Source: Enchytraeus crypticus
Taxonomy: Eukaryota > Annelida > Clitellata > Enchytraeida > Enchytraeidae
NCBI GenBank assembly: GCA_905160935.1
Contig: CAJHZI010000689.1
Span: forward strand, 1 to 64,000
DNA length: 64,000 nt
Direction: 5' to 3'
Of this stretch, positions 9,598 through 64,000 are shown one piece after another (positions within the stretch are counted from its first letter, which is position 1; each line of letters begins with the position of its first letter). Made by a program: the position numbers and the translations under genes. Below the pieces are notes generated by a model. That model was not told the DNA's origin. It worked only from the letters and a program-made list of their open reading frames with translations, and ran no database searches.

Positions 9598-12500
9598 CTG
9601 CACAAGCAACAGATCACGGTAGGCTATAAAATAAAAGTGTCTGTAGGAGCACTGCAAAGGCAATTGTAGTAAAATGGTTGGCCACAATCCAGGATTAATA
9701 GAGATTGATATTTATACCATCATTAATTGAAAGTCAGTGTAGGAAATATCCTTTTAGTTTTATCTCCTAATTTTGGAACCTTTCATTTCAAAACTCTCAA
9801 TCTTCTTCCTTACCATTAAAACTTCTTTGTAAGTTAAACTGCTCTTAAAATATCAATCTACCGAATATTTACATATTGTTCCTCACGTTTAGTAAATATG
9901 GAAAAGCCGCACAAAACCACTGAATTACAATATTAACAATGAATCAGTTCATCTGCGCAATAAACTAAGAAATTCAGCACATACCAGGCACGGGGTCCCT
10001 GAAATGTTCCTTGAACCATCTGATCATAGAGTTGAGTGAGGGGAACATCTGCATACGATATCTCATGCCCTCTGGTGTCACAGTCACGTACTCGTGCTTG
10101 CACGTCGTGCGAGGTTTGTATGACAGCAGGAACTTCCCTGGATACTTTGAGCTCGGCGAAAAATAGTACGGTATCCTGCGGAATAAATTGAGAATAGCTC
10201 TGTATTAGATGATAAATAAGCTTAATTCAACATTCAATTAAAGGATATTATGATGCAATTCAAATTTAAATTTAACTGACTTTTGTGCTGTTTACATAAA
10301 ATAATTATATTAGATTACTAATTTACAATAGTTATTAATATTTCGAATGCAGGGAAAAAATGAAACTTATAATTGTTAATTGTCTAGTCTCATAACTTTA
10401 AAAATCCATAAATAAAGTAATAACAATAAAAGCAATCAAGTGTAGATTACAACTTAACAACGGAATATTAAATTGAATATTAAGAATAATATAATAATAA
10501 TTATAAAAGTTCTGCTGGCTATCAAATCAATTTCTGTGCATGCCTGTGTTGATTTATGAAAAAAAAATTTGTAGCTTTATTGTAAGCTTGAAATGTTTGT
10601 AAGTATCATGGCTTCTTCTATGGAATGAATCAATTATTCACTAGATGGAAACAAGTCGACGACATACCTGCTCGGAGCTTTCATCTTCTCTTCGGATAAA
10701 GCTCTCTCAATGACATCCATGCTGGTGTTACAATCCACATCCTTGTAGCTCTTGTAGTTGATGATATCACGAGCGAATGACGACATCGGCTGAACGTGTC
10801 GAGCTATTATCTCGTCCAAGTCTTCAAATGTCTGCACACAACATATTAATATACATAGTAGTCAGTTTAAGTCTTGAAATGTCTGCAATATTTTAGTATA
10901 CATAATAAGTAAGTACAAGTGTCTGCACACAACATATTAGCATACATAATAGCTTGAGTAAGTCTTCAAATGTCGACAACATATTTGGATGTATAATAGT
11001 ACATGAAATGCGGCAAAAGCAAGTTCCTAGTAAGGCTTAAGAACAAGAGCATACTAAACCGAACACTCAATAGACAACAGATCTCTGTTATCAGTAAGAT
11101 TTTCAACTGTGGATAAATGAGTGCACAGTTCAAATATTTGGCTTTCCCATTACTGATATTCTTTCGAGACATTTGAGACTTATACAGGCTTAATTATTTT
11201 AGGATACAAAATCAACAACTAACCTCTCCATCAATCTTGAGACATTTACCAATACTGAAACTGTTCTCCTTGTTTTCCTCCTTCACATCGATGTTCTGCA
11301 GTATATTATTTCCCGCCACTTTCCAAGTGACCGTCAGATGATCTGTGCCCTATAAATCAATCAATCAATTTATAATTAATAAACCACTCACACATCATCC
11401 AATAAACATCATTAAAGCAGGCAGATAATTATATTATTTTACTGAGTAGAAAATTAATACGACACAATAGGAATTGTTTTCTATGCCAGGATATCAATTC
11501 ATGAGAATTTGTATATAAAAATAATATTTAGAGTAAAAGACGGAGTTTATTTATTGGAGACAGTAACGGAGATGAAATATTGGGAGAAAAAATCCTGGAC
11601 TCACCTTGCTGCTAGGTCTGATAACAATATCACCCTGATCCATTGTCAGCATCAACTTCTCACACTGCCTGTAGTCTATGTTGTGGAATGACGGATGAGC
11701 AATGACGCGCTTCACGTACGCTAAACATAACACAAACAACTCAGTAAAATCATCTAAAATCATATCACAATCTGATCTAGCGATGTAAGCTATGCTCCAT
11801 GCTATAACAGATTCACTGCTGGTTCACTTTAAGATAATAGTAAAGTTACATGTGCAGAAAACGACAAAGACCAATTAGATCAAATATTCCACAAGGCAAC
11901 TATTCCTAAAAGACATCAATAGAACGGTTAACTTAAATTATCTCTAGAATTCAAATTATGATATGACTTCTTAGGTAAACACTGAAAAAATATGGCTTTT
12001 AAACTCTGCACCTCGCAAGGGTAACAACTAAAATATGAAATTAGAAAGATCTATAGAAATAATAATATTTCACAAAGACGAAGCAACATTAAAAGGAATA
12101 TCTGATACTTACTTTGTCGAGACTGTTGCTTTTTCTTCTCTTCTTCTTTTATCCTTTCTGCATCTTCAAGCTCAAAATCGTAGAATGCATCCTTCTGCAG
12201 TCTGCGATGAATAAACATGTTTTTATATACAGTATATTGCACAAATGCCACATTAGTAACAGTACCAGTTCTAGACTAAAACTGTAATTAAACAAATTAG
12301 GAACATGAGTGATAACCTACGTTAAAATTGCAATCAAACTACATAGTACAAAATTCTTCCATTTTTTAAATGACAGGAGAGAAAAAAAAAAAAAATCTGA
12401 AACTGAATACTTTGCTAAACAATCTGGCTCAATTTTGTTCACATTTTATATTCTCCACCATTTACAATGAAAAGTTAGAATTAAAAGCAATTTGATAGAC

Positions 12501-64000: not shown

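Follow-up and report, generated by a model that had tools for sequence, protein, structure and literature searches.

In amphioxus, intron/exon boundaries that have been duplicated in tandem in the manner of a minisatellite, on the 3' or the 5' side, are known under the name of mirages. They have been described in the Adh3 gene and the globin genes BflGb6 and BflGb9 (PMC3087553, PMC3902484), and also in the troponin C and PGBD5 genes (PMC3902484). According to the available portions of these two papers, the repeated units measure 10-72 bp in Adh3 and 150-160 bp in the globin genes, AG/GT signals are present in many copies, the true exon is retained, the mRNAs are normal and length is unstable (PMC3087553, PMC3902484); the accessible text of PMC3902484 adds that the Adh and troponin C mirages yield no aberrant mRNAs. 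A search of the open-access PMC literature gave no report under the name mirage outside lancelets. In the available part of PMC7710358, the word occurs in the title of a reference, in another sense. Intronic minisatellites are described in the metallothionein gene of an earthworm (PMC12783039), in passages that, as far as accessible, do not name the exon edge.

The present analysis concerns a stretch of 64,000 nucleotides of worm DNA, hereafter the window. A sequence-only reading had noticed tandem intronic copies at eight splice edges in two genes, and had stated that it knew of no named repeat class with this property. Its first claim is confirmed, and its exon numbers agree with our gene models; its second is wrong, the class being that of the mirages, as they are described in the available text on amphioxus (PMC3087553, PMC3902484).

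The two genes that carry the arrays are unrelated, neighbouring and oppositely oriented (Table 1). The first was named SPT6 from its relatives, the top seven of which, among the best 120 of 597 matches, are at 58-61% identity. No cephalochordate is named among these best 120 matches, and in a tree of 22 rows, with no cephalochordate row included, the window groups with Helobdella (98/95), Ridgeia coming next. The genome is therefore most likely that of an annelid, and what is new here is likely to be a distant second lineage with mirages, together with their density. The protein encoded by the second gene matched CARD and kinase domains in Pfam. There was no SH2 match in it at E 0.001, and its SH2-like region is a putative one, read from the sequence; the SH2 Pfam domain is found in 15 of the 46 relatives of this protein, among which is a protein of the annelid Paralvinella (55%). 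Exons 1-6 of the kinase gene span 53412..62128 without a stop, exon 5 being at 60738-60935. GT-AG borders were found in all 36 introns checked in the two genes. The SPT6 introns have a median length of 492 bp, and 30 of 31 exceed 250 bp (one is shorter than this), as do all five complete kinase introns. Elsewhere in the window, an open frame on the minus strand (431-1207) resembles, by eye, a fragment of reverse transcriptase.

Table 1. Positions of the two genes and of the arrays found at their exon edges; decoys are the copies other than the true edge.
Feature	Position	Strand	Description
SPT6 gene	29667..8491	minus	32 exons, unbroken frame, one stop, at its end
SPT6 exon 7 acceptor array	25280..25574	minus	Exon 25125-25309; 4 decoys and true edge
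SPT6 exon 21 acceptor array	15068..15340	minus	Exon 14921-15128; 2 diverged decoys and true edge
SPT6 exon 22 acceptor array	14365..14524	minus	Exon 14249-14396; 2 decoys and true edge
SPT6 exon 24 acceptor array	13055..13223	minus	Exon 12932-13072; 2 decoys and true edge; 66 bp unit
SPT6 exon 29 acceptor array	10825..10998	minus	Exon 10668-10831; 3 diverged decoys and true edge
CARD / SH2-like / tyrosine kinase gene	53412..64000	plus	Exons 1-6 within window
Kinase exon 5 acceptor array	59858..60284	plus	10 decoys, 43 bp unit, each AG/GTAAAG
Kinase exon 5 donor-side copies	61085..61634	plus	Diverged; 50 bp unit; exon end 60935
Kinase exon 7 acceptor array	63374..64000	plus	9 decoys in window; 37 nt exon and (ATTG)n; edge inferred

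Tandem intronic copies of the splice site and of a slice of the adjoining exon are present at the acceptor edges of SPT6 exons 7, 21, 22, 24 and 29 and of kinase exons 5 and 7, and at the donor edge of kinase exon 5. Laying out the copies gave the same tally as that first drawn from the sequence: seven of the eight arrays are on the acceptor side and one on the donor side. The arrays are real, and the pattern is confirmed at the eight edges, the donor one being weaker and that of kinase exon 7 inferred. In the acceptor arrays, the unit consists of the end of the intron, with its AG mostly retained, and of the exon slice. The sizes initially proposed (43 to about 70 bp for the unit, 15-75 nt for its exon part) are close; the copies are 73 and 108 bp apart at SPT6 exon 21 and 40-51 bp apart at exon 29, and the exon slices measure between about 9 and 73 nt.

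At SPT6 exon 7, the units are made of 30 nt of exon and a (TGAT)n intron part; those of exon 21 include some 73 nt of exon and a TGAT tract. The exon 21 array is absent from the output of TRF, and was found by a duplication scan and by comparison with the exon edge. At exon 24, the nearest decoy and the true site do not differ at any position along 90 nt, of which 72 lie upstream and 18 belong to the exon. Both reading frames are unbroken when the inner copies are used. Two other repeats were observed close to these exons. In the intron before exon 7 (25580-25700), the stretch following the donor recurs 83 bp on, just before the first acceptor copy, and a 21 bp repeat of 2.1 copies (12887-12930) starts directly behind the donor of exon 24.

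In the kinase gene, the true edge of exon 5 (60738) lies about 450 bp beyond the decoys, with inserted repeats between them. The donor-side copies of the same exon, which are split by a SINE-like element, represent the weakest case, their best local score of 23 being attained by 7 of 1000 dinucleotide shuffles. As for exon 7, the true exon would lie beyond base 64000, and its edge was placed from the reading frame, at SVQ/VISALQYLESLC. The SINE-like repeat was delimited by eye at five places (61280-61530, 45660-45900, 60290-60400, 18370-18610 and 30720-30910), all sharing the tail GTGATAGATATC, and a tRNA-like box B, GGGTTCGAATCCC, is present at three of them; a scan of the window with Rfam at gathering thresholds gave no match. 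A purely intronic 32 bp minisatellite (55666-56386; 22.6 copies, 94% matches) stops some 50 bp short of the kinase exon 2 acceptor.

Arrays carrying an exon edge were counted against a null model in which array-sized segments are placed at random, nearly all-exonic placements being excluded. At a score of 40, TRF returned 52 rows in the two genes, of which 9 with a period of at most 6 and 2 wholly exonic ones were set aside. Ten rows correspond to seven of the eight large arrays, the exon 21 array being added from the duplication scan and edge comparison, and the typical units of the large arrays (43 to 100 bp) were entered by hand. All eight in-gene arrays with units of at least 43 bp carry an exon edge, for 1.09 expected (P = 2.6e-8; for this and the following P values, the size cut was chosen post hoc, and the window because it showed the pattern). 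Taking the seven arrays found by TRF only, 0.80 are expected (P = 8.8e-8), and when the 39 arrays of any size are considered, 8 carry an edge for 1.6 expected (P = 4.6e-5). Dropping the two softer edges (kinase exon 7 and kinase donor) leaves six, and P becomes 6.8e-5 among the large arrays and 0.0028 among all. The 31 arrays with units of 8-33 bp, among which is the 21 bp repeat behind the donor of exon 24, never include an exon edge (0/31).

In a window rich in repeats, could ordinary intronic minisatellites have landed at exon edges by coincidence, and have been noticed because the edges were being read? The presence of 31 other arrays in the two genes is in line with this hypothesis, and so are two further counts. 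TRF intervals by themselves overlap an edge by at least 8 nt in three of seven cases only (exons 7, 22 and 24; P = 0.033, in a window chosen because the pattern was seen), the other large arrays being tied to their edges by sequence likeness beyond the TRF interval. In a per-position duplication scan, hits were obtained at 4 of 31 SPT6 acceptors versus 4.6% of 2256 interior probes, an excess of about threefold at most, and at none of 5 kinase acceptors versus 29% of 876 interior probes, the exon 5 array lying off its edge and the exon 7 edge beyond the window; an earlier version of the test gave 3 of 29 acceptors versus 6.5% of intron positions. Such scans are weak because arrays of all kinds fill much of the intron, and because inserts part a kinase array from its edge. 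The centring on splice junctions that had been proposed is supported for the large-unit arrays; the excess is slight when judged by TRF overlap, and the per-position scans are modest in SPT6 and negative in the kinase gene. As chance predicts about one edge-carrying array among the large ones, and eight are seen, or six without the softer cases, we tend to regard this hypothesis as unlikely.

The explanation that we favour, and consider probable, is that the arrays are mirage-type minisatellites, stemming from edge-spanning duplications that are tolerated as the outer copy turns into intron, and that subsequently grow as any minisatellite does. A tandem duplication of the intron end and exon start would place the outer copy in the intron, the inner one staying on the exon, and would be tolerated because splicing at the inner copy leaves the protein unchanged. 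The array may then expand or contract via slippage or unequal exchange, a mode of growth to which the likeness of the copies points. The choice of the inner copy could follow from exon definition, which would pick the copy nearest to the other splice site of the exon; when introns exceed 250 bp, the exon tends to be the unit across which splice sites are selected. In human data, exon definition significantly lowers an otherwise clear preference for upstream acceptors, but according to the accessible text this preference is lowered rather than reversed, and the overall lean is still upstream (PMC9225289). Because the preference is only reduced, exon definition alone may not explain the presumed silence of the nearest exon 24 decoy, which matches the true site. 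RNA-templated copying of splicing intermediates was considered as another origin of the copies and set aside: it would not readily yield head-to-tail arrays beside their source.

Tolerance alone leaves the absence of large-unit arrays from intron interiors unaccounted for. It predicts more large-unit arrays lying wholly in introns, and TRF detected none in the two genes, so that a hotspot must be added. The duplication scan also yielded four weak intronic duplications of two copies each (lags 77-330 bp), which were not counted as arrays. The acceptor side may constitute a local hotspot, perhaps through (TTGA)n tracts that would slip or misalign 15-45 nt upstream of the edge.

Such a tract makes up the intron part in four of the seven acceptor arrays (SPT6 exons 7, 21 and 24; kinase exon 7), and is missing from the other three (SPT6 exons 22 and 29; kinase exon 5). 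In a pattern that was noticed after the fact, the motif TGATTGAT, whatever its phase, is found in 13 of 31 SPT6 introns on the sense strand versus one on the antisense strand, and 8 of these 13 introns have it at a distance of 15-43 nt from the acceptor. By zone, it is present in the last 100 nt of 8 of 31 SPT6 introns, in the first 100 nt of 3 of 31 and in the middle of 3 of 28. Among kinase introns with a visible acceptor, none has the tract at 15-45 nt. Tract bases amount to 297 on the sense versus 8 on the antisense strand in SPT6, 308 versus 0 in the kinase gene, and 44 and 24 on the two strands outside these genes, counts that owe much to the arrays themselves. In each of the two oppositely oriented genes, TGAT runs are nearly confined to the sense strand.

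The TTGA tract fits the animal branch-point pattern, and this fit, together with its place, suggests that the tracts are putative repeated branch-point motifs. The proximity of (TTGA)n to the branch-point zone is our best lead on why the acceptor side is favoured. A bolder proposal, which we advance tentatively as a possibility, would make acceptor edges a genome-wide hotspot of duplication, seeded by sense-strand (TTGA)n acting as repeated branch-point motifs. If it were true, thousands of exons would be accompanied by near-identical acceptor arrays, in which a sequence is spliced or ignored by virtue of its place alone.

A different view of the arrays is that copies are kept as functional decoys, which would slow splicing or give transcripts with early stops, and thereby lower expression. 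The true splice sites of the window (36 acceptors, 37 donors) served to build the tables with which decoys were scored. The AG is in place at the junction in 26 of 32 decoys, and 8 of the 32, including three of exon 7 and both of exon 24, reach the lower quartile of the true acceptors. Read-through was tested for 19 decoys (13 in SPT6; in the kinase gene, 6 of 10 from exon 5 and 0 of 9 from exon 7), and in all of them it meets a stop within the insert. Furthermore, in three of the four arrays measured, divergence is lower in the exon slices than in the intron parts, which is unexpected under plain neutrality unless there is conversion by the true exon or faster slippage of the intron tract, and either of these could account for it; this comparison weighs little because slippage in the tetranucleotide part confounds it. 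These features would suit decoys. However, most copies fall short of the lower quartile, 6 of the 32 either lack the AG or have it displaced, stops are frequent in AT-rich intron anyway, and arrays are present in two unrelated neighbouring genes. Likewise, no aberrant mRNA is reported for the amphioxus Adh and troponin C mirages in the available text of PMC3902484. We saw no pattern that demands selection for decoys, and this hypothesis appears quite improbable; of the two possibilities first raised from the sequence, a duplication hotspot or the retention of decoys, the former is favoured.

It may also be asked whether the AG/GT repeats function as recursive or dual-specific splice sites, or supply the material from which new introns arise, in a duplication of the type described by Rogers. 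The AG/GT motif, which could act as either site, is found in four of the seven acceptor arrays. Exons starting with GT are enriched, in a comparison made post hoc: of the array exons whose true start can be seen, 3 of 6 begin so, versus 2 of 30 other exons (P = 0.024), or 4 of 7 array exons upon addition of kinase exon 7 (P = 0.007). In three of the four exon 7 decoys, the GT stands at the 51st percentile of true donors, and dual-specific AGGT sites have been linked with tandem repeats in human genes (available text of PMC10809524). Nevertheless, three array exons begin with ACA, GGT and CAC, so that AG/GT is not needed for an array to form. Intron gain of the Rogers type is not borne out when the start of each intron is compared with that of the next exon: over 36 introns, the median score is 12 for own pairs and 13 for mispaired ones, and the six array introns score 10-15, none exceeding the 95% line of 17. 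A score above this line, 19, was obtained for one intron without an array, which precedes SPT6 exon 6. We therefore hold this interpretation to be very improbable. Finally, although the amphioxus draft genome seems to contain one misassembled mirage (available text of PMC3087553), an assembly artefact is hardly tenable here: the copies differ among themselves, and inserted repeats, which part one kinase array from its edge and interrupt another, point to an old origin and count against a simple error of assembly.

The finding of so many arrays here suggests that DNA may be readily duplicated at exon edges. If the density found here holds genome-wide, boundary-spanning minisatellites would be no oddity of lancelets but a general route of intron lengthening, and perhaps also a route for the birth of splice sites. 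In the array of SPT6 exon 24, acceptors that match exactly along 90 nt are separated by 66 bp, and arrays of this sort offer a natural test of how the spliceosome decides between equal sites. They are also a warning for gene finders and assemblers in similar genomes.

How, then, do these arrays compare with known systems? Two likenesses to human tandem repeats can be pointed out. Internal tandem repeats of segmental duplications, located at exon-intron boundaries, likewise alter gene structure; as far as the available text describes them (PMC2812944), they belong to recent paralogs and can create new introns or coding repeats, whereas the true exon of the worm reads on unchanged. In UBC, dual-specific splice sites are carried by tandem repeats, and some worm arrays similarly contain AG/GT units; in the portion of PMC10809524 available, however, the UBC repeat is coding and use of the sites is demonstrated, whereas the worm arrays are intronic and use of their sites is only potential. 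The closest resemblance is with the amphioxus mirages. In both, the tandem segment spans the exon-intron boundary, as is found here at the eight edges with the two reservations made above, and the true exon stands intact and in frame beside the array, the exon of kinase exon 7 lying beyond the window. In contrast to the amphioxus cases, the worm arrays most likely belong to a different phylum, gather at eight edges in two neighbouring genes, lie mostly on the acceptor side, contain a (TTGA)n tract in four instances, and are known here from one sequence.
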